NCBI RefSeq assembly: GCF_024696245.1
Contig: NZ_JAILGZ010000006.1
Coordinates: 51,282-115,281 of the forward strand
Direction of reading: 5' to 3'
Length of the DNA: 64,000 nt
Source: Treponema sp.
GTDB lineage: Bacteria > Spirochaetota > Spirochaetia > Treponematales > Treponemataceae
Position 1 is the stretch's first letter, and every line of letters starts with the position of its first letter. The translations under genes and the position numbers were made by a program. Below are positions 23,327 through 34,355 of the stretch, piece after piece. Under the pieces are notes generated by a model. That model was not told the DNA's origin, searched no databases, and saw only the letters and a program-made list of their open reading frames with translations.

Positions 23327-24976
23327 ATGAAAAAAATTGCCTTATTAACAGCGACCCTTATTTGCACTGCAGGCCTTTTTGCCCAGACAGCAGATGAAGA
23401 AGAAAAGATTATCCTTCCGGAACTTACAACTACAGTAACAGGTGATTCCCTTACTGCCGGAAAAGATGCTGTGCCTGATTTTTCAGATGTACTTCCATCT
23501 GAATCAGAAGACCTTCCTATGCCTAAGCTCCCTGGAATTCAGACAGGTAATGTTTATGATGAACCGGAAGCAGATTTTTCTTCTGCCTCAGACAAGCAGA
23601 TTTTTGCAAATGGTCTTATAGGTGCAGGTATTCCGGGATATTTTACCGGAGATTTTTCTATCTATAAGAGCAGTGGTGATAATCCTTTCTCCCTTAAGTT
23701 TTCTCATGAAAACCAGAATGGTTACGGAAAACATGATGTTACAGAAGGATACTTTGACCGCAGGACCCTTCTTAGTGGAGAAAAAACAATTACTACTAAA
23801 AACTTTGTATTTGATTTTTCTGCAGCCTATGACAACAGTGCTTACGGTCTTCAGGAAAAGAGTGAAGCTTTTTATGACATTAACTATCAGACAGTTTCTA
23901 CTAAGGACAATATTAAATGGAAGCTTCCTTATGGTTTTGCCTTTAATCTTGGGGGCCAGGCTGAATGGTACAACCGCTATGAAGGTAAAAACAAGGATTC
24001 AGTAAGTTCCCTTTTAAGCCAGCAGGAAGACGGAGATGTTTTCTTCTTAAATCCTGTATTTAAAGCCCAGTGGGAAAACTACGGCTTTAACATTGCCTTT
24101 CTTTCTGACTATCAGTGTGAATTCTTTTATAACAGTGAATCAACAGCTGGCAGTGAAGACACTTCCCTTATCAGCAGGGGAGAGTTTACCCTTGCCTTTG
24201 GCTGGAAAAATGATTTCCTTAAAATTGCTGCTGACGGTGGTGTAGTTGTTGGTAATGAAATCGGAGGCAACACAGCCCTTCCTGTATTCTCCCTTGACTT
24301 TACAGGAACCTTCAAAGCCGGAAGCCGTGACCTTGTTATAGAAGCTACCGGAGGTCTTCTTTCTGAACTTACAAAATACTCTGATGCAGAAAAGGCTTAT
24401 CTTTTTACAGCTTCTTCAATTCTCCCATCAGAAAGTACTGACTGGTTTGGTTCTTTAAAACTCAGTCTTCCTATTGGTTCAAAGCTTACTCTTGATGCAG
24501 GTACAACTTTTAAAAAGACAGCCTTTGGAAACGGAAGCTGGGAAGCTGATTATTCACAGACAATCGGTACGGAAAACCTTTACGGACTTACAGAAAAGGA
24601 ACGTACTATTCTTATATCTCAGGCAGCCCTTTCTTTCTCATGGAAAATATTCACTGTAGAACTTGAGTGGAAGAATAACGCCCTTCATGTTCCTTCAAAT
24701 GAATATTCAAATGTAATCGGCGGTAATCTTGACTTTCAGTCTTCCCTTGCAAACTGGGGCTTTAATGCCGGACTTTACGAAACTATTGGTGAAGATGTAG
24801 ATCTCTGCCCTGTAATTAAGGGAGGTGCTTTTTACAAGCTCAGGGATTCCATCAGTCTTGAACTGGCAGTTGACGATGTTGTAAAATTAATATTCAGAAA
24901 AGACCGTGACTATGGTGAATCAATTTACCTTAAGAGGGCAGGAAGTGCTAAGATTCTTGTACACTTCTTCTTCTAG
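23327..24976 (+). CDS. Predicted outer-membrane beta-barrel protein
   Basis: Signal peptide MKKIALLTATLICTAGLFAQ; alternating beta-strand pattern; C-terminal aromatic ending ILVHFFF. Confidence 0.65.
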   Translation: MKKIALLTATLICTAGLFAQTADEEEKIILPELTTTVTGDSLTAGKDAVPDFSDVLPSESEDLPMPKLPGIQTGNVYDEPEADFSSASDKQIFANGLIGAGIPGYFTGDFSIYKSSGDNPFSLKFSHENQNGYGKHDVTEGYFDRRTLLSGEKTITTKNFVFDFSAAYDNSAYGLQEKSEAFYDINYQTVSTKDNIKWKLPYGFAFNLGGQAEWYNRYEGKNKDSVSSLLSQQEDGDVFFLNPVFKAQWENYGFNIAFLSDYQCEFFYNSESTAGSEDTSLISRGEFTLAFGWKNDFLKIAADGGVVVGNEIGGNTALPVFSLDFTGTFKAGSRDLVIEATGGLLSELTKYSDAEKAYLFTASSILPSESTDWFGSLKLSLPIGSKLTLDAGTTFKKTAFGNGSWEADYSQTIGTENLYGLTEKERTILISQAALSFSWKIFTVELEWKNNALHVPSNEYSNVIGGNLDFQSSLANWGFNAGLYETIGEDVDLCPVIKGGAFYKLRDSISLELAVDDVVKLIFRKDRDYGESIYLKRAGSAKILVHFFF

Positions 24977-25032: not shown

Positions 25033-25644
25033 ATGTTAGAAACATTAAAAAGCGGTGGACCACTTATTATTCCTATTGTACTTTGCGGAGTAATTGCTCT
25101 TTTTATCATTATTGAAAGACTTCATTATTTTATTACCCTTAAAAAAAGGGATGAAAAACTTATGAAGTCGATTCTTGATGATCTTGAAGGCCATGATTAT
25201 TCAACAGCAGAAGCTGATTGTATTCAGGCTGACACACCATGTGCAGAAGTAATCAGAATGGCAATTAACAGCCGCCGTCTTGATGAAGTAAACCTTAAGG
25301 AAGCAGTACAGACTAAAATGGACAGTGTAGTTCAGCAGTTTGAACATTTCCTTTCGGCTCTTGGAACAATTTCAAATATTTCTACACTTCTGGGACTTCT
25401 TGGAACCGTAACAGGTAACATTAAGGCCTTTGGTGTTCTTGGAAACGGCGGCTCTATGGGTGATCCTGCAGTTTTGGCAGGTGCCATAGCAGAAGCTCTT
25501 GTAACTACAGTTGCCGGACTTGTTGTAGCTATTCCTGCAATTGTATTCCACAATTATTTTAACAGCCAGGTTAACCACAGAATCCGTGACATGGAATCAA
25601 ATGTAACCCAGGTTATGTTCCGTATTTTAGGAAAGGATATCTGA
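25033..25644 (+). CDS. MotA/TolQ/ExbB proton channel family protein
   Basis: Three TM segments; TISNISTLLGLLGTVTGNIKAFG...ALVTTVAGLVVAIPAIVFHNYF. Confidence 0.9.
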   Translation: MLETLKSGGPLIIPIVLCGVIALFIIIERLHYFITLKKRDEKLMKSILDDLEGHDYSTAEADCIQADTPCAEVIRMAINSRRLDEVNLKEAVQTKMDSVVQQFEHFLSALGTISNISTLLGLLGTVTGNIKAFGVLGNGGSMGDPAVLAGAIAEALVTTVAGLVVAIPAIVFHNYFNSQVNHRIRDMESNVTQVMFRILGKDI

Positions 25645-25645
25645 C

Positions 25646-26056
25646 ATGCGCATAACTAAAAGACCAAAACCATCGTCAGGAGTAGATTTGTCTCCTATGC
25701 TGGATGTTATCTTTCAGTTAATCCTCTTTTTCCTTGTATCTACAACTTTTGCCAACCTTCCGGGAATTACCCTTAATCTTCCGGAAAGTAAAACTTCTCA
25801 GGGAACTGATATAAGCGGTGTAAATATTACTGTAGAAGAAGATGGAAAAATCTGGTTTAACGAAAGTGAATCTTCCATGGAACTTTTACAGACCCAGCTT
25901 GGACAGGTTGAACTTGGAAACTTTACAAAGGAGACATATCCTGTTTCCATTCAGGCTGATGAAAAGGTAACTAACGGTACAATCGTAAAGATTTTTGACG
26001 CCATAAGAATTAACGGTTTTACTTCCGTTAGTTTAAGGACAACAGACGTAAGATAA
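25646..26056 (+). CDS. ExbD/TolR family biopolymer transport protein
   Basis: VDLSPMLDVIFQLILFFLVSTTFA TM segment with conserved Asp. Confidence 0.9.
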   Translation: MRITKRPKPSSGVDLSPMLDVIFQLILFFLVSTTFANLPGITLNLPESKTSQGTDISGVNITVEEDGKIWFNESESSMELLQTQLGQVELGNFTKETYPVSIQADEKVTNGTIVKIFDAIRINGFTSVSLRTTDVR

Positions 26057-27145
26057 ATGACAGCAATAGAAAACAGGGGGAACATCTTTAGTACTGTAAT
26101 GACTGCTGCAATTTGTGCAGTCCTTATAATACTTGGACTGATGATTCAGGCACCCCAGAAGAGAGAAATCTTTAAGACAATAAAAGTATCTCTGGCTCCA
26201 CTGGAAAAGACTTTAAATGATAAGCCTCAGACTGCGGACGAATCAGATGCAGCCTCTGCTTCTTCATCTAATGCCAGTGCACCATCCTCTGCACAGGAAG
26301 TTGTTGAGGAAGCAGTTACAGAGAAGGCTCCTCCAGCCCCGGCACAGGCTCCGGCTAAAGCAAAGACTCAGAGCCAGACTAAAAAGGCTCAGGCTTCTTC
26401 ACCTTCAAAAGCTTCTTCAAAAGCCTCTTCTTCTACCTCAGCCAAAGCTTCTACAAAAGCTCCTGTAACCCAAACTCCTGCTCCAACTGTAACAAGGAAG
26501 TATAAAAAAAGTGTAGAAGAACTTGCTCAGGAACAGATGAATGCTCCAAAAAAATCCTCTTCATATAGTGATGATGATTTTGAATACACGGAATCAACTT
26601 CTTCTGCTTCTTCTTCAAAAACGGCAACAGCTTCCAGTTCCCTTTCAGGAAGTGCAGCTAAGGCTTCTAACAGTAAGTCAAATACACCTTCAACATCCAG
26701 GTCCAGTGACGGAAAGACTGTAAATAAAAGTACATCTTCTTCTACTTCCAGCGCTTTAAGCGGAATGAATATGAATAAATATTCAACTACTGTTGCAGAT
26801 GGTATTTCCAGCCGTACAAACATTAAGACCGGCTCAGAAGGCGGAAAGGTTACTATTCTTGTAGGAGGAGTAGCAAGACAGCTGCTTCAGCCTTCAAAGC
26901 CTGTAATCTATCTTGATGAAGATGTGGCAAAGTTAATTGATAATACCCGTGTAGTAACAATTACCTTTAAGGTTTTAGGGAACGGACGTGTTCCTTCTTC
27001 TGATATAGCAATCAGGCCTTCTTCCCTCCTGCCTGCTGCCGTACAGGATGCCATAAGGGCAGAGCTTTCTACCTGGCTTTTTAGTGCTGATCCATCAGGA
27101 GAATCAGGTACAGCATCTTTTGACTATACTATAGAAGTAAAATAA
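26057..27145 (+). CDS. TonB-like energy transducer
   Basis: N-terminal TM anchor, long Ala/Ser/Pro/Lys-rich linker, small C-terminal domain; directly after ExbB/ExbD. Confidence 0.7.
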   Translation: MTAIENRGNIFSTVMTAAICAVLIILGLMIQAPQKREIFKTIKVSLAPLEKTLNDKPQTADESDAASASSSNASAPSSAQEVVEEAVTEKAPPAPAQAPAKAKTQSQTKKAQASSPSKASSKASSSTSAKASTKAPVTQTPAPTVTRKYKKSVEELAQEQMNAPKKSSSYSDDDFEYTESTSSASSSKTATASSSLSGSAAKASNSKSNTPSTSRSSDGKTVNKSTSSSTSSALSGMNMNKYSTTVADGISSRTNIKTGSEGGKVTILVGGVARQLLQPSKPVIYLDEDVAKLIDNTRVVTITFKVLGNGRVPSSDIAIRPSSLLPAAVQDAIRAELSTWLFSADPSGESGTASFDYTIEVK

Positions 27146-27178: not shown

Positions 27179-27850
27179 ATGATAGAAGGAATTAAAGCTG
27201 TTGCATTTGATATAGACGGAACTCTTTATCCAACCTGGAAACTTTTTATCCGGATGCCGTTCTATTTTTTTAGCCATTTTTCTTTTTACTATAAATTCAA
27301 TAAGGTAAGACATAAGATGCATCATACAGCCCCTCTGGGAGACTTTTTTGAGTACCAGGCCAGGCTTTATGCTGCCATAGCAGGACTTTCTCCTGCAGAT
27401 GCTAAAAAAGAAATAAAGAAAATCAGCTATGACGGACTTACTCCCTTTTTTAGAAAAATTAAGCCTTACCCTCATGTTTACGAATCCATAAAGGCAATGA
27501 AGGATGCAGGCCTTAAAATAGGAATACTTTCTGATTTTCCTCCTGAACAGAAGGAAGATATCTGGGGAATCAGGGATTTATGTGACGTTTGCATAGGTTC
27601 AGAAGAAAGCGGTGCCCTTAAGCCTTCAAAATATCCTTTTGGAATCCTTGCCCAAAAACTCAATCTAAAGCCCCAGGAGATTCTGTATGTAGGAAACAGC
27701 CGTAAATATGACATTGAAGGTGCAAAAAATGCCGGAATGAAAAGTGCCTACATTTTATCCGGTATCAGGCGTCTTTTTAACCTTAAACTTAAAGAAGCCG
27801 ATTTTTCGTTTAAAAGCTATCGCCAATTGAAAAACATTGTGTTAAACTAG
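27179..27850 (+). CDS. HAD-family hydrolase
   Basis: AFDIDGTLYPTW, GILSDFPPEQ and YVGNSRKYDIEGAKNAGMKSAYI motifs. Confidence 0.88.
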   Translation: MIEGIKAVAFDIDGTLYPTWKLFIRMPFYFFSHFSFYYKFNKVRHKMHHTAPLGDFFEYQARLYAAIAGLSPADAKKEIKKISYDGLTPFFRKIKPYPHVYESIKAMKDAGLKIGILSDFPPEQKEDIWGIRDLCDVCIGSEESGALKPSKYPFGILAQKLNLKPQEILYVGNSRKYDIEGAKNAGMKSAYILSGIRRLFNLKLKEADFSFKSYRQLKNIVLN

Positions 27851-27875: not shown

Positions 27876-30800
27876 ATGACTATTATCGCTATTATTGTAT
27901 CAGTTGCGATTTCTGCTGGTATTGCGCTTGCTTTGCATCAGAAAGATAAGAATCAGAACTCAATGGAAAAGGTAAAGCGCTATACTGACCGCCGTCTTGC
28001 GGAACTTGAAGAAATCCTTAAAGAAAAAGAAAAAGAAATAAACGGATACGCCCTTCAGCTGGATACAAAAAATATTGAATCTAAGGCTGTTGTAAAAAAA
28101 CTTCAGCAGCAGTTTGACGAATGTATCAGTGCAACTAGGGATCTTAAAAAACCGGTTACGGAAGTAGAAAAGATTTACGAAAAAATTAATTCCTATGAAA
28201 TGGTAATTAAGAACCTTATGGAAATGACTGCAGCTGTTGAGCAGAACCTGCAGAGGGTAAAGAAAGAAGCCGGTATTGTTGATAAACTTAACGAAAGGCT
28301 TAACCTGCAGCAGAAAACTGTAGAAACAATAGAAAAAAAGATTCCTTCAATTACAAAGGAATTTGCTGCAAAAAACTCAGAGCAGCTTAAGGTTATCGGT
28401 TCCAACCTTCTTGATCAGTACGATACTATTGCAGACAACATTAATGCCTCTACATCAAAGGCCCTTGCAGAAAGTAAGGAACTTATGGCAAAGATTCAGA
28501 CAGATATAAAAAATGCTTACAATGGTGCTGCAGAAAAAGCCCGCAGCCTGGAAGATGAAGCATTTAAAAAGCTTAGTGCAGATTCCCAGAAGCGCTTTGA
28601 TGAATGCCGCCATGAAGTAGACGTACAGACTAAACAGGTAACTGCAATTATTGATTCTAAAATCCAGAATACCCAGAAAGACATTCAGGACGTTACCAAA
28701 AAGTTTGAAGATTCCATGGAAGAACAGTCAGCTGCTTTTGAACAGGAATTTAAGGATAAGATTGCTTACCTTACTTCAAGCCTGGAAAGCCGCAGCAGTG
28801 AACTTACAGAAAAACTTGAAGCAAAGGTTTCTTCTGTTGAAGACAAGATTTATGAACAGACTTCTACACTGGATTCCCTTTATAAGGATCACACAAAGAA
28901 TATAGAAGATAATTTTTCTTCTAAAGCAGATGCCCTTAACGAGATGTTTGAAGAACGTCTTACTAATCTTGAAAACATGCTCCATGACAAAACTTCCGGA
29001 TTTGAAACAAGCCTTATAGAACGTACCCAGTCTCTTGAAGATGACCTTGTTTCAAAGACAGCTGCCCTTGAAGAAGCAATTACTACAAGAACGGATAAGA
29101 TCGAAAATGAATTTAACGATAAGTCCGGCAAGTTTGAAAGTGAAGTATCTTCTAAGACAACAGCCCTGGAAAACTTTATAACGGAAAAAACTCAAAGCCT
29201 TCAGGCTGATTTTGAAGCCAGGGTTCAGGCTCTTGAAGATTCAGTTAATGAAAAAACATCAGGTATTGAACTCTCCGTAAATGAAAGAACTTCCGGTCTT
29301 GAAGCTTCTGTAGAAGAAAAGACCCGTGCTCTTGAAGAAAACCTTACTTCCAGAACTACAGCCCTTGAAAGTGCCCTTAACCAGAAGGCTGCAGAACTTG
29401 AAAATTCCGTTCTTTCCAAAACAGAATCCATGGACAGGGAAGTGGAAGACAAGACTACCCTTATTAAATCCAGCGTAAGTGAAGTTGTTAAAAAGCTTAA
29501 TGCTTCCTTTGATGAGAAAATCAAGGAATTTGAAAATGAATACCAGCAGAAACTTAAGGAAGCTGCAGAAAGCGTAAAGGAAACAACAGCCGGTGCAGAT
29601 GCAAGTGTTAAACAGAAGACTCAGGCACTTGTGGCTGCCTTTAACGAAAAGATTGCTTCCGTTACTGAAGCCCTTAAAACAAGGACAACAGCCCTTCACA
29701 AGGAAATCAATCAGAATGCTGCAGATTCAGAAGCAGGATTTAAAGAAAAGATTGCTGACCTTACAAATCATCTTAACAACATGGAAGCTCAGGTTAAGGA
29801 ACGCACGGAAGCTGTTATTACCAGTGCCAATAAAAACCTTGATTCCCTTCAGGAAGAAATTACCAAGTCTTATGACGAAACCCGTAAGACAGCAGACCGT
29901 CTTGGTGCAGAAACCAAGGGTAATACAGAAAAGCTTCATGCAGTTCAGGCTGCAATCCTTTCTCAGGCAGAGCAGCTTAAGGAACGTTATGACAATGTAT
30001 TTGAAACAGCTGTGGCAAAGGTTGTCAGTGACGAAAATGCCGCTTATGAAAAGTACAATGCCATAAGTTCAGCTAATCTTGATAAATATAAGGGCAGCGT
30101 ACAGAAGCTTGTAGACGAAATGCAGGCTTCTATTACTGCAAGACTTTCTGAACTTGAAGAAAAATCTGAAAGTGTCAGGACAGAAGTTGAATCTACAATC
30201 ACTGCCATGCAGACTTCTTTTGAAGATGCAAGAAACAGATCAGAAGAAACAGCCCTTCGTATTGCCAGGGAAACAGAAGAAGGTACTGAACGCCTTAACA
30301 ACTTTAATGATGCAGTAAAGAAGCAGCTTTCTGATTTTGACGGTGAGCTTAGCGATGCAATGAAAAAGATTGCAGCTGACTACGATATTAAACAGACAAA
30401 GTTTCTTTCCGGTCTTGATAAGCAGCTTGATATGTATAAGAGGGAAATGGAATACCGCTTTAAGCAGCTTAATGCTACAGGTGCCGATGCAGATAAACTG
30501 GAAGGCGCCCTCCGCAAGCTTATGGATTCAGCTCAGAAAAAAGTTGTTACAGACCTGGATAAATATGCAGCCTCTGTTAACAGACAGCAGGCCGATTTTG
30601 AATCAGCTGTAAAGAACAGAATTGAAAACCTTAAGGGTGAACTTAGTGGTGTTGAACAGGCAATAGATGAACTTAAGAAAAAATCTTATTCCAATGTCAG
30701 TGCCCGTCTTAAGCTCTTTGAAGATGACTTTATTGTTAACATTAAAAAGAGGGAAGACGAAGTTCAGGACCAGCTTGCTTCATGGAAAAATAATTTTGAC

Positions 30801-32474
30801 GGACAGCTTGCAGTATTTACAGATGAATATGAAAAGCACCGCCGTGACCTTGAAGTTAAATATACTGACAGCTTAAAGAAAAAGCTTGCAGAAATTCAGG
30901 CAAAGACTTCTGAACAGGAACAGAAATTCCAGACTTCCATTATGTCAGGACAGTCAGTAATTCAGGAACAGATTAATACTGTAAACCAGAAGCTTCACGA
31001 ATTTATAGAAAGTTACAGAAATGAACTTAAGGATACAACTCAGAAGGCTGATGAATACCTTAAGGCAGAAACTGAATCCTACAACAGTAAGGTTCAGGCT
31101 CAGCTTGAAAAGAACGAAAAGGAACTTACAGAAAAACTTGTACAGTTCCAGCGTGATGCAGAAAGCCGTCAGGAAAATCAGAATGCTGCCATAGATGCTG
31201 CAATGCAGGAATTTAATGTATGGAAGCAGCGTATTCAGGCTCAGTTTGATGATGCAGACGGACAGTTTGCTTCTGACCTTAAGGAACTTGAGGATAAGTC
31301 CCGCAGGGAAAACGAAAAGATTTTTGCTGATGTAGAAAAAGTTCAGAATGACACCAGGGAAATCATGGCTCAGCTTAAGGATGACTTTGACAGTCTTGTT
31401 ACTTCTTCCCGCAAGTTTGTTTCTGATCAGAATGCAGACAATGAAAAGCAGATGAAGGAAATCCGTGGCGAAGTTAAGGCTACTTCTGATGAATACAAGA
31501 AGGCTTACCGTGCAATTATTGAAAAGCTTAACCAGGATACAAATAACCTTCAGCTTAAGATTGACGGCATTAACCAGGGAATTGCCAAGTTTACTGCAGA
31601 AACCGGCGTATTTGATAAGGCTGATGTTCTTAAAAAGCAGCTGGATGAGGCAATTACAGACCTTAAGTCCCAGCTTTCAGAAGTAAAGGATTATGACGAA
31701 AAGATTAATGACCTTAATGTTCGTGTTACAGAACTTAATAAGCTCAGCTCTGACGTTAACTCAAGAATCAATTCATTTGCCGGTGACAGAGCCCGTATAA
31801 ATGACCTTGATTCCAAGTTCTCCAAGCTTATGGCTATTAGTGATGCCATGGACAGCAAGATTCTTGACCTTAACTCAACCAGTGACAACCTTACCAATAT
31901 GCAGGCAGAAGTCAGAAAGTTCCAGGAGACTCTTGCAGGCATCCAGACTAAGTATGACCGCCTTGAAAAGAAGGGTACTGCCATTGACCGTGTTGCAGAA
32001 GAAGTTGACCAGTCCTTTGAAAATATCAAGGAACTTGAACAGCGTCTTCAGGAATGCAGTCACAGAACGGACCAGCTCCCTATTGCCATTGAAAAGGTAC
32101 AGGGTGATATAGAAAAGATTATGAAGAGCAGCGGTAAGATTAATGATGCCATTGGAAAGGTTGCAAGCCTGGATAATGTCCTTAACGAAATCGATGAACG
32201 CTACAGCAAGCTTACTTCAGAAAAGGGTGCAATTGCTGCTTCAGAAGAAAAGATTCTTCGTGCTGCTTCTAATACTCAGAAAGAAATTAAGATACTTCAG
32301 GAAATGGCTAAGCGTGAAGTTCAGAAGGGTGGTGGTGATACAGATTCCGTTACTCCGGAAACCCGTAACACTGTTAAGTCCCTTAAAGCTTCCGGATGGA
32401 CAGAACTTCAGATTGCAAAGAAACTTAATCTTACTAAATCAGAAGTTTCCCTTATCCTTCAGCTTGAAGACTAG
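27876..32474 (+). CDS. SpiroCoCo-type giant coiled-coil protein with N-terminal TM and C-terminal HTH-like tail
   Basis: 1532 aa; MTIIAIIVSVAISAGIALAL anchor; about 1400 aa coiled coil; tail VKSLKASGWTELQIAKKLNLTKSEVSLILQLED. Confidence 0.8.
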   Translation: MTIIAIIVSVAISAGIALALHQKDKNQNSMEKVKRYTDRRLAELEEILKEKEKEINGYALQLDTKNIESKAVVKKLQQQFDECISATRDLKKPVTEVEKIYEKINSYEMVIKNLMEMTAAVEQNLQRVKKEAGIVDKLNERLNLQQKTVETIEKKIPSITKEFAAKNSEQLKVIGSNLLDQYDTIADNINASTSKALAESKELMAKIQTDIKNAYNGAAEKARSLEDEAFKKLSADSQKRFDECRHEVDVQTKQVTAIIDSKIQNTQKDIQDVTKKFEDSMEEQSAAFEQEFKDKIAYLTSSLESRSSELTEKLEAKVSSVEDKIYEQTSTLDSLYKDHTKNIEDNFSSKADALNEMFEERLTNLENMLHDKTSGFETSLIERTQSLEDDLVSKTAALEEAITTRTDKIENEFNDKSGKFESEVSSKTTALENFITEKTQSLQADFEARVQALEDSVNEKTSGIELSVNERTSGLEASVEEKTRALEENLTSRTTALESALNQKAAELENSVLSKTESMDREVEDKTTLIKSSVSEVVKKLNASFDEKIKEFENEYQQKLKEAAESVKETTAGADASVKQKTQALVAAFNEKIASVTEALKTRTTALHKEINQNAADSEAGFKEKIADLTNHLNNMEAQVKERTEAVITSANKNLDSLQEEITKSYDETRKTADRLGAETKGNTEKLHAVQAAILSQAEQLKERYDNVFETAVAKVVSDENAAYEKYNAISSANLDKYKGSVQKLVDEMQASITARLSELEEKSESVRTEVESTITAMQTSFEDARNRSEETALRIARETEEGTERLNNFNDAVKKQLSDFDGELSDAMKKIAADYDIKQTKFLSGLDKQLDMYKREMEYRFKQLNATGADADKLEGALRKLMDSAQKKVVTDLDKYAASVNRQQADFESAVKNRIENLKGELSGVEQAIDELKKKSYSNVSARLKLFEDDFIVNIKKREDEVQDQLASWKNNFDGQLAVFTDEYEKHRRDLEVKYTDSLKKKLAEIQAKTSEQEQKFQTSIMSGQSVIQEQINTVNQKLHEFIESYRNELKDTTQKADEYLKAETESYNSKVQAQLEKNEKELTEKLVQFQRDAESRQENQNAAIDAAMQEFNVWKQRIQAQFDDADGQFASDLKELEDKSRRENEKIFADVEKVQNDTREIMAQLKDDFDSLVTSSRKFVSDQNADNEKQMKEIRGEVKATSDEYKKAYRAIIEKLNQDTNNLQLKIDGINQGIAKFTAETGVFDKADVLKKQLDEAITDLKSQLSEVKDYDEKINDLNVRVTELNKLSSDVNSRINSFAGDRARINDLDSKFSKLMAISDAMDSKILDLNSTSDNLTNMQAEVRKFQETLAGIQTKYDRLEKKGTAIDRVAEEVDQSFENIKELEQRLQECSHRTDQLPIAIEKVQGDIEKIMKSSGKINDAIGKVASLDNVLNEIDERYSKLTSEKGAIAASEEKILRAASNTQKEIKILQEMAKREVQKGGGDTDSVTPETRNTVKSLKASGWTELQIAKKLNLTKSEVSLILQLED
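28587..29774 (+). repeat. 36 contiguous 33-nt / 11-residue (hendecad) repeats
   Basis: Protein splits without gaps into 11-mers from QKRFDECRHEV to KEKIADLTNHL, e.g. NEKTSGIELSV NERTSGLEASV EEKTRALEENL TSRTTALESAL. Confidence 0.93.
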
Positions 32475-32480
32475 ATTTAT

Positions 32481-32525
32481 AAATAAGCTTTGTTAATGAA
32501 TGATAATTATTAACAAAGCTTATTT
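32481..32525. terminator. Bidirectional rho-independent terminator
   Basis: Perfect 17-bp stem AAATAAGCTTTGTTAAT (32481-32497) / ATTAACAAAGCTTATTT (32509-32525) between convergent genes, overlapping the ispDF stop codon. Confidence 0.85.
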
Positions 32526-33725
32526 TTCTAAAAGACAGGTGCAGTAAGCCTTTACTGCATCTCCTTTTCCAACGCTGTCGAGTTTTTCGTTGGTTTTAGC
32601 CTTAACGAATACCCGGCAGCTTTCTGTTTTTAAAATACCTGCTATGCTTTCTATTACCTTACTTCTCCAGGGAAGGAATTTAGGGCTTTCCAGTTCTATT
32701 ACACAGTCAAGGTTTCCTAAAGACCAGCCGGCCTTTTGTATGTCATCCCAGACTTTTTTTAAGAGAAGGGCAGAGTCAGCGTCCTTCCACTTTGCTTCTT
32801 CCGGTGGAAAGTATGAACCTATATCACCCATTCCTGCTGCACCAAGAAGGGCATCTGTTACTGCATGAAGGAGTACGTCACCATCAGAATGTCCAAGTTC
32901 TCCTTTTGTAGAAGGAATCTCTATTCCTCCAATCATCAGTCTGCGGCCTTCTACAAGTTTATGAAGGTCTGTTCCAAGTCCAACCCTTATCATTTTCTTT
33001 TCCTTAAGGTCCTGGGGATAAGTTATTTTTATATTGCAGGGGTTTCCCTTAACAAGATGAACATGGCTGCCTCCTGTTAATTCAGGAAAAGCATCCCATA
33101 TTTCCGTGTCGTCTGTATATTCCTTATTAATTTGTGAGGCCTTTTTATGACATTTAATAAGGGAATTAAGTAAAAAGCCCTGTGGTGTCTGAATTGCTGT
33201 AAGGCAGCTTCTTACAAGGTGCCTTGTTATGGTCATGTCAGGGGCTACTTCTTTCTGGGTATCAGAAGGGGTAATGCCTGGAGCTGCAGCCTTGTATTCT
33301 TTAACTGCGGCAATAGTGTCCTGTATGATTTCTTTTGTTACAAATGGTCTTGCACCGTCATGAATAAGTACCAGAGGGTTTAAGGAAAGTTCTTCCTCTG
33401 TAAGGTTTTCCCTGGCAGCGATAAGGGCTTTAAATACTGACTTTTGTCTTGTATCAGAGCCCTGGCATAAAAGTAGTCTGGAAGAAGACGCTTTAAGGAG
33501 GTCTTCTACCTGTGGATCACAGAAAAGGGCCTGCTTTGCTTCTTCTTCTTTATTTTCTGGTACTGTAATGATAATCAGATTAAAAGGGGCAGCTTTAAGG
33601 AAGGTTTTTAATCCTTCTGCCAGAACTGTGGAACTGCCTAAAGGAAGGTATTCTTTTTTTTTGCCGGTCCCCATTCTTGTAGAGGAACCGGCTGCCGTTA
33701 AGACAAGTACTAAAGGAGATGACAA
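32520..33725 (-). CDS. ispDF: Bifunctional IspD/IspF (MEP cytidylyltransferase / MECDP synthase)
   Basis: IspD N-half (AAGSSTRMGTGKKKEYLPLG) and IspF C-half (MIRVGLGTDLHKL...GELGHSDGDVLLHAVTDALLGAAGMGDIGSYFP). Starts at TTG immediately after the CarD stop. Confidence 0.93.
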   Translation of the reverse strand: MSSPLVLVLTAAGSSTRMGTGKKKEYLPLGSSTVLAEGLKTFLKAAPFNLIIITVPENKEEEAKQALFCDPQVEDLLKASSSRLLLCQGSDTRQKSVFKALIAARENLTEEELSLNPLVLIHDGARPFVTKEIIQDTIAAVKEYKAAAPGITPSDTQKEVAPDMTITRHLVRSCLTAIQTPQGFLLNSLIKCHKKASQINKEYTDDTEIWDAFPELTGGSHVHLVKGNPCNIKITYPQDLKEKKMIRVGLGTDLHKLVEGRRLMIGGIEIPSTKGELGHSDGDVLLHAVTDALLGAAGMGDIGSYFPPEEAKWKDADSALLLKKVWDDIQKAGWSLGNLDCVIELESPKFLPWRSKVIESIAGILKTESCRVFVKAKTNEKLDSVGKGDAVKAYCTCLLEK

Positions 33726-34355
33726 TTAATCATCCTCGTCATCATCATCGTCGTCTGAATCTCTTGAGTTGTTGTTTTCTTCTGCAAATTCATCTTCGTC
33801 GTCTTCGTCGTCATCTGAATATACAGGTTTCTTTTCAATTTTTGCACCAAGAGGTTCAAGCTTTGCATGAAGCATATCTTCTACTTCTTTAACGGAAATC
33901 TTCATTGCATCAGAAATCTCGTCTTCAAGAAGTTTTTTTGCATTGTCATAAAGCTTGCGTTCAAGAATTGGGAGTTCCTTAACCTTAGAACGGTGATAAA
34001 GGCATCTTACAATAGAAGCAATGTCCTTTACTGTTCCCTTTTTAAGAAGGTCAAGGTTCATCTGATAGCGCAGCTTCCAGTCAGAAGTTGGTGTTTCAAA
34101 TTCTTCGCTGATAAGGTCCAGTGCTTCCTGAGCTTCTTTTGCAGAAACGATGGCACGGATACCTAAAGAGGCAGCTTTTTCTGCCGGTACCATAACAATC
34201 ATGTCAGAAACTTCAAGGTATATCTTGTAAAAATAAACCTGTTCACCTTTAAAGTCTCTTTTGAAAATTTCAGTGATTTTTCCTACACCCTGACTAGGGT
34301 AAACTACTTTTTGATTTAATGCGAACTCTGTCTTTGGTTTAGCCATAGGATACAA
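33726..34355 (-). CDS. CarD-family transcriptional regulator with acidic tail
   Basis: NQKVVYPSQGVGKITEIFKRDFKGEQVYFYKIYLE RID fold; C-terminus SDDDDDDEDD. Confidence 0.88.
   Translation of the reverse strand: MYPMAKPKTEFALNQKVVYPSQGVGKITEIFKRDFKGEQVYFYKIYLEVSDMIVMVPAEKAASLGIRAIVSAKEAQEALDLISEEFETPTSDWKLRYQMNLDLLKKGTVKDIASIVRCLYHRSKVKELPILERKLYDNAKKLLEDEISDAMKISVKEVEDMLHAKLEPLGAKIEKKPVYSDDDEDDEDEFAEENNNSRDSDDDDDDEDD

Follow-up and report, generated by a model that had tools for sequence, protein, structure and literature searches.

Tetrabrachion, an archaeal surface stalk, is a hendecad coiled coil. Among proteins that serve flagella, FipA of gamma-proteobacteria consists of a transmembrane segment, a coil and a DUF2802 domain and recruits FlhF; the DUF2802 domain, with the invariant residues G110, E126 and L129, has been reported to bind FlhF (PMC11620751). 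SwrB of B. subtilis is a single-pass transmembrane protein that acts on the flagellar export apparatus (PMC4526659). FlhF has further been reported to act in the flagellation of Borrelia and Leptospira (reviewed in PMC12826062), and thus a partner for a FipA-like adaptor exists in these bacteria.

The window, a 64,000-nucleotide stretch of DNA from Treponema sp., encodes a giant membrane-anchored coiled-coil protein with the following parts and immediate neighbours (window coordinates, strand).

27179..27850, + strand: HAD-type phosphatase gene, directly upstream, named from sequence; beside 76 of 110 fetched loci
27876..32474, + strand: SpiroCoCo family protein, whole open reading frame, 1532 aa; NCBIfam SpiroCoCo_N NF047514 and SpiroCoCo_C NF047515
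27876..27941, + strand: N-terminal transmembrane segment, aa 1-22, basic residues next; KD19 maximum 2.59 at aa 2
27894..28574, + strand: SpiroCoCo_N domain, aa 7-233, heptad then hendecad helix; NCBIfam match, heptad score 0.33-0.45 (window starts aa 23-89), AF2 helix
28587..29774, + strand: 36 consecutive hendecads, aa 238-633; translation split and periodicity
30582..31160, + strand: second hendecad block, about aa 903-1095, in the absolute register of the first array; absolute phase 2 (window starts 903-1057)
31524..32459, + strand: SpiroCoCo_C domain, aa 1217-1528, heptad coil; NCBIfam match, heptad score 0.33-0.63, AF2 helices
32355..32462, + strand: putative C-terminal helix-turn-helix-like tip, about aa 1494-1529, DUF6115/DUF2802-like; AF2 three helices, DUF6115 in 26/30 and DUF2802 in 17/30 members, conserved G-x15-E-x2-L
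32520..34355, - strand: IspDF and CarD-like genes, convergent, downstream, named from sequence and memory; IspDF beside 95 of 110 and CarD beside 74 of 110 loci

The two SpiroCoCo domains are found in order, one at each end of the protein, and both pass their curated cut-offs: SpiroCoCo_N matches aa 7-233 at 2.6e-69 (233 bits, cut-off 75) and SpiroCoCo_C matches aa 1217-1528 at 9.6e-88 (294 bits, cut-off 125). Judged by these matches, the window protein is a member of the SpiroCoCo family, and nothing sets it apart from the family. The NCBIfam model names carry no function, and a search of the open-access literature by family name and locus tags found no paper on SpiroCoCo function, repeat quantisation or tip relationship; we likewise know of no reported partner, localisation or phenotype. 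Matches of the C domain to Pfam coiled-coil families such as Nuf2 and COG3 were attributed to composition and discounted. In outline the protein is a mosaic of a membrane segment (aa 2-20), heptads (about aa 23-165), hendecads (from about aa 155) and again heptads (about aa 1190-1450). The membrane anchor proposed in the sequence-only reading is supported: hydropathy peaks at 2.59 over aa 2-20 and no other part of the protein comes near this value, giving one transmembrane helix. Because basic residues follow this segment, the coil is predicted by the positive-inside rule to be cytoplasmic. In a single-chain AF2 model, aa 32-329, including the first array units, form a single continuous helix (pLDDT mostly 80-90 beyond aa 110), while the C domain is modelled as helices of 183 and 84 aa, a flexible linker and three short terminal helices.

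The sequence-only reading had described an unbroken array of 36 hendecads, and the translation indeed divides from codon 238 (position 28587) to position 29774 into 36 x 11 codons with no insertion. Positions 4, 7 and 11 are apolar or Thr in the array units, as had been stated, and xxKTxxLExxV is a fair summary of the unit, with Lys or Arg at position 3 in 28/36 units, Thr at position 4 in 19/36, Leu at position 7 in 18/36 and Glu at position 8 in 19/36. The 11-residue Fourier peak that was looked for is present, the hydrophobic period being 3.67 (11/3) with a power of 34.7, compared with a mean maximum of 6.4 and a largest value of 12.9 in 500 shuffles. Heptads, the alternative, fit the array poorly, scoring about 0.1 where the 3-4-4 hendecad pattern scores 0.55-0.71. 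Compared in register, the units share an identity of 0.20, against 0.06-0.10 out of register, and the best self-identity lags are 44, 33, 11 and 22 residues. The protein thus shows both the 11/3 periodicity and the 3-4-4 core spacing of a hendecad coiled coil.

The limits of the array needed adjustment. The 36 units stand, but the register already starts somewhat upstream, from about aa 177, and a running criterion counts about 38 units. Downstream, where the sequence-only reading had seen the periodicity fade, there is no simple fading: after aa 633 the register shifts while the period stays near 3.64, and the absolute register of the first array reappears at about aa 903-1095. Across the spirochaete phylum, the middle region has a period near 3.64, close to a straight helix bundle. 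If fully helical, the array is about 59 nm long (about 60 nm in the earlier estimate); the whole coil would measure roughly 215 nm.

Among 76 full-length orthologues from the same family and the window protein, fixed anchor points of the N and C domains are separated by 559 to 3025 residues. In a test that needs no repeat alignment, independent sister pairs of unequal length, separated by <0.6 substitutions per site, were taken from a tree of the two end domains; their length differences are a multiple of 11 in 10/16 pairs, with 1.5 expected (p = 1.8e-7). Among pair differences not divisible by 11, 8/10 fit whole turns of 3.64 residues (p = 8e-5), a weaker test since it was chosen after the 3.64 period had been seen. 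The window protein and its closest relative, L055 (78% identical, full length), are separated by a single internal indel, which measures exactly 11 aa and lies inside the array; further close pairs carry indels of 11, 55 or 77 residues, and 37 of the 40 internal indels in 39 overlapping pairs of >=70% identity are divisible by 11. By strict count, the first array spans from a few to about 144 units across Treponema orthologues, and L052 has 144 consecutive units by the running criterion.

The suggestion of an ancestral, phase-locked 33-bp expansion is supported and sharpened by these results, in that indels between close relatives are almost only whole units and 15/18 long exact DNA repeats in the orthologues are spaced at multiples of 33 nt. 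This spacing makes recombination between units a plausible source of length change. The accompanying idea of selection against indels holds only if restated as selection for, or mutational bias to, whole-unit indels, because indels do occur and distant Treponema orthologues show register breaks. At the DNA level, the 11-aa inserts share only 67-73% identity with units at a distance of 66 or 132 nt, and longer inserts 41-59%; the inserts are therefore not very recent copies, and an origin of the extra units as recent tandem copies was rejected. The rod, the repeat quantisation and the family identity are well supported.

Several further observations concern length. Long exact DNA repeats at lags other than multiples of 33 occur in L115, L098 and L084 (200, 59 and 63 nt). 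In one spirochaete family (L169-L183), gene lengths in 15 genomes cluster at 33-residue steps, or three hendecads, the pairs being non-independent. The SpiroCoCo of the Treponema zioleckii kT3 record (L135, on a contig shared with L073) has 3415 aa, and its gene contains an exact repeat of 89 nt at a 33n lag. The longest open frames found, about 2300-9127 aa, are in family f24 (G215, G184 and relatives; L190-L193), presumably Brachyspira. Length as a ruler of cell diameter was considered and found unsupported, T. zioleckii having 3415 aa (about 500 nm) versus 1260 aa in T. berlinense, a comparison judged without measured diameters.

At the other end of the protein, the last 40 residues of 30 diverse SpiroCoCo members were scanned alone, which removed the coiled-coil bias. 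DUF6115 was matched by 26/30 members, DUF2802 by 17/30 (at 0.01, best 2.4e-7) and the best generic HTH family by 13/30. The window protein itself scores 17.7-23.3 bits against DUF6115 (PF19610), below the Pfam gathering score of 27, which several orthologues exceed over their C-terminal 100 residues, and 14.0 bits against DUF2802 (PF10975), under the gathering score of 33.5. Both the window tip and the tip consensus contain a G-x15-E-x2-L motif with the spacing of FipA; in the consensus, W and E are invariant and G reaches at least 90%. The tip thus appears to be a helix-turn-helix-like domain closest to DUF6115/DUF2802, with the reservation that a 40-aa helix-turn-helix can resemble many others. 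The genome of the window also encodes a short DUF6115 protein (L209:8403-8999) of 199 aa with a hydrophobic N-terminus, above the cut-off and given no name by NCBIfam, whose gene ends the cluster flhA-flhF-flhG-x-fliA/whiG-FapA. A similar short protein in L210, beside similar genes, matches SpiroCoCo_C at 1.8e-10.

SpiroCoCo_C and FlhA matches were surveyed in 247 spirochaete genomes. FlhA is absent in 14/247, all belonging to family f12, which we take to be the non-spiral Sphaerochaetaceae, and the same 14 genomes have no SpiroCoCo_C match better than 1.7e-5. A SpiroCoCo_C match <=1.7e-6 is present in 232/233 FlhA-positive genomes, nearly all far better. The weakest positive, G209, lies near the coiled-coil background, and the weakest positives are uncertain because this background gives weak SpiroCoCo_C matches in unrelated control genomes. 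A good SpiroCoCo_C match is absent from the FlhA-positive Treponemataceae G065, G074, G011 and G058 (three of them <90% complete) and likewise from G257; assembly gaps are possible in these genomes. As all FlhA-less genomes fall in one clade, the co-absence amounts to one loss event; this clade may have lost helical shape as well. In the same material, two SpiroCoCo_C matches about 4 kb apart lie on one contig in separate frames at L204 and L200 (G145, G158), likely as tandem paralogues, and at G063:C1:321269-322202 the SpiroCoCo_C match is divided between open frames of 895 and 215 aa, through a frameshift or sequencing error.

We infer the oligomeric state, cytoplasmic topology, partner and function of SpiroCoCo as follows. 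The protein would be held in the membrane by its short N-terminal tail and single transmembrane helix. From there a parallel coiled coil of great length would extend into the cytoplasm, its middle forming a near-straight rod, with the small helix-turn-helix-like tip at the far end. Rod length follows the number of 33-bp units and changes mainly by whole-unit gain or loss, so that the apolar stripe stays in phase. Like that of FipA, the tip may hold a flagellar assembly factor a set distance away from the anchoring membrane helix, with FlhF as the prime candidate and FlhA or the basal body as alternatives, and SpiroCoCo would thereby help to place or organise the periplasmic flagella. By analogy, SpiroCoCo could be a giant FipA-like adaptor serving periplasmic flagella. 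This is the best of the readings considered, and we give it slightly less than an even chance, as its support comes from a small domain, a single loss event and analogy.

The closest rival is a cytoskeletal or cell-shape scaffold, in which the rods form bundled filaments beneath the membrane that give the helical cell stiffness or shape, with no direct flagellar partner. The presence of the protein in nearly all spirochaetes and its absence from one family, f12 (probably the non-spiral Sphaerochaetaceae), would suit such a role, as would the very long, near-straight coil, its period of about 3.64 across the phylum and its size, which reaches about 9100 aa in one family. However, a scaffold by itself does not explain why the DUF6115/DUF2802-like tip is conserved and why a short relative of it is encoded in the flhF-flhG cluster, and we regard this role as possible but rather unlikely.

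A tether between chromosome and membrane, with the C-terminal helix-turn-helix binding DNA, would instead draw on the shape of the tip. AF2 models it as a three-helix HTH, the nearest solved folds of the C domain in Foldseek are mostly DNA-binding HTH proteins (E about 0.04-0.5, none <0.001), and the generic HTH matches noted above point the same way. Yet the best sequence families, DUF6115 and DUF2802, are not DNA-binding ones, the DUF2802 domain of FipA is reported to bind FlhF (PMC11620751), and SpiroCoCo is absent where FlhA is absent; the tether is accordingly improbable in our estimate. It could also be speculated that SpiroCoCo is a genetically set molecular ruler, in which the repeat number fixes the distance from anchor to tip, the FipA-like tip holds FlhF or the flagellar motor, and array length tunes the position or spacing of the periplasmic flagella; we consider this doubtful, a little more so than the tether.

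Hendecads also occur in proteins of another kind, and SpiroCoCo could lie along the membrane as an amphipathic helix, in the manner of apolipoproteins, perilipins and synuclein. Pfam Apolipoprotein is matched above its cut-off (138 bits, 3.2e-40), apolipoprotein-type families are likewise built on 11-mers, and a PDB sequence search returned only ApoA-IV chains, a hendecad look-alike. Such a match is, however, to be expected for most hendecad helices. Class-A lipid-binding helices carry Lys and Arg on both flanks, whereas opposite charges form the pattern of interhelical salt bridges. Over 1334 units, one flank of SpiroCoCo has 48% Lys/Arg versus 5% Asp/Glu and the other 36% Asp/Glu versus 7% Lys/Arg, and the apolar face is narrow, at 3 of 11 positions. 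Despite the profile match, the basic flanks on both sides and the wide apolar face of Apolipoprotein A1/A4/E are therefore lacking. The oppositely charged flanks fit a coiled coil better than a lipid-binding helix, as do the core positions, which change less than others (0.21 versus 0.37) and in 21/23 changes stay apolar or Thr; the lipid-helix reading was rejected as highly improbable.

SpiroCoCo lies outside the flagellar operons, and its conserved neighbours over the 110 loci are the HAD, IspDF and CarD genes. In the window, ExbB, ExbD and TonB-like genes stand in a row at 25033-27145, preceded at 23327-24976 by a gene whose 549-aa product has a signal-like N-terminus; this cassette was seen ahead of the HAD gene in only some of the orthologous loci. 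The reading of SpiroCoCo as a ZorA-like motor tail or other defence part, to which this cassette and PADLOC ZorA models matching the coil (5.2e-19) might point, was rejected as the least credible of all, since the models match only the tail coil from profile position 209 or later, the one-helix protein has no MotA-like or other MotA/ExbB-type membrane domain, ExbB/ExbD stand beside only 26/110 loci (many fetched flanks being too short to show them), and SpiroCoCo is near-universal in the phylum.

The SpiroCoCo family itself was already named in NCBIfam; new here are its hendecad-wise length evolution, the flank charges, the likeness of the tip and the co-absence with FlhA. Under the flagellar-adaptor reading, flagellar placement, an open question for bacteria with periplasmic flagella, would become a testable role for a near-universal spirochaete protein of 1000-9000 aa for which we found no published function. 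SpiroCoCo is also a clean natural case in which the length of a protein evolves by whole structural units, and it lends itself to asking what determines the length of a rod and how a coiled coil stays in register.

Compared with known systems, SpiroCoCo shares with the tetrabrachion stalk (compared by description) the 11/3 periodicity and a near-straight or right-handed rod, whereas tetrabrachion is an archaeal surface stalk and SpiroCoCo a membrane-anchored rod of spirochaetes. SwrB (PMC4526659), also compared by description, is like SpiroCoCo a single-pass transmembrane protein, and its gene, like that of the short DUF6115 protein, is the last of a flagellar cluster; unlike SpiroCoCo, SwrB acts in swarming and hook assembly of an externally flagellated cell and has no giant rod. 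FipA (PMC11620751) differs in size, with 18.4 kDa and about 28 residues of coil as against 1000-9000 aa, and in locus, as fipA follows the flhF-flhG operon and SpiroCoCo lies elsewhere. In both, however, a short N-terminal tail and one transmembrane helix are followed by a cytoplasmic coil, predicted as such in SpiroCoCo, and by a small C-terminal domain with G-x15-E-x2-L.
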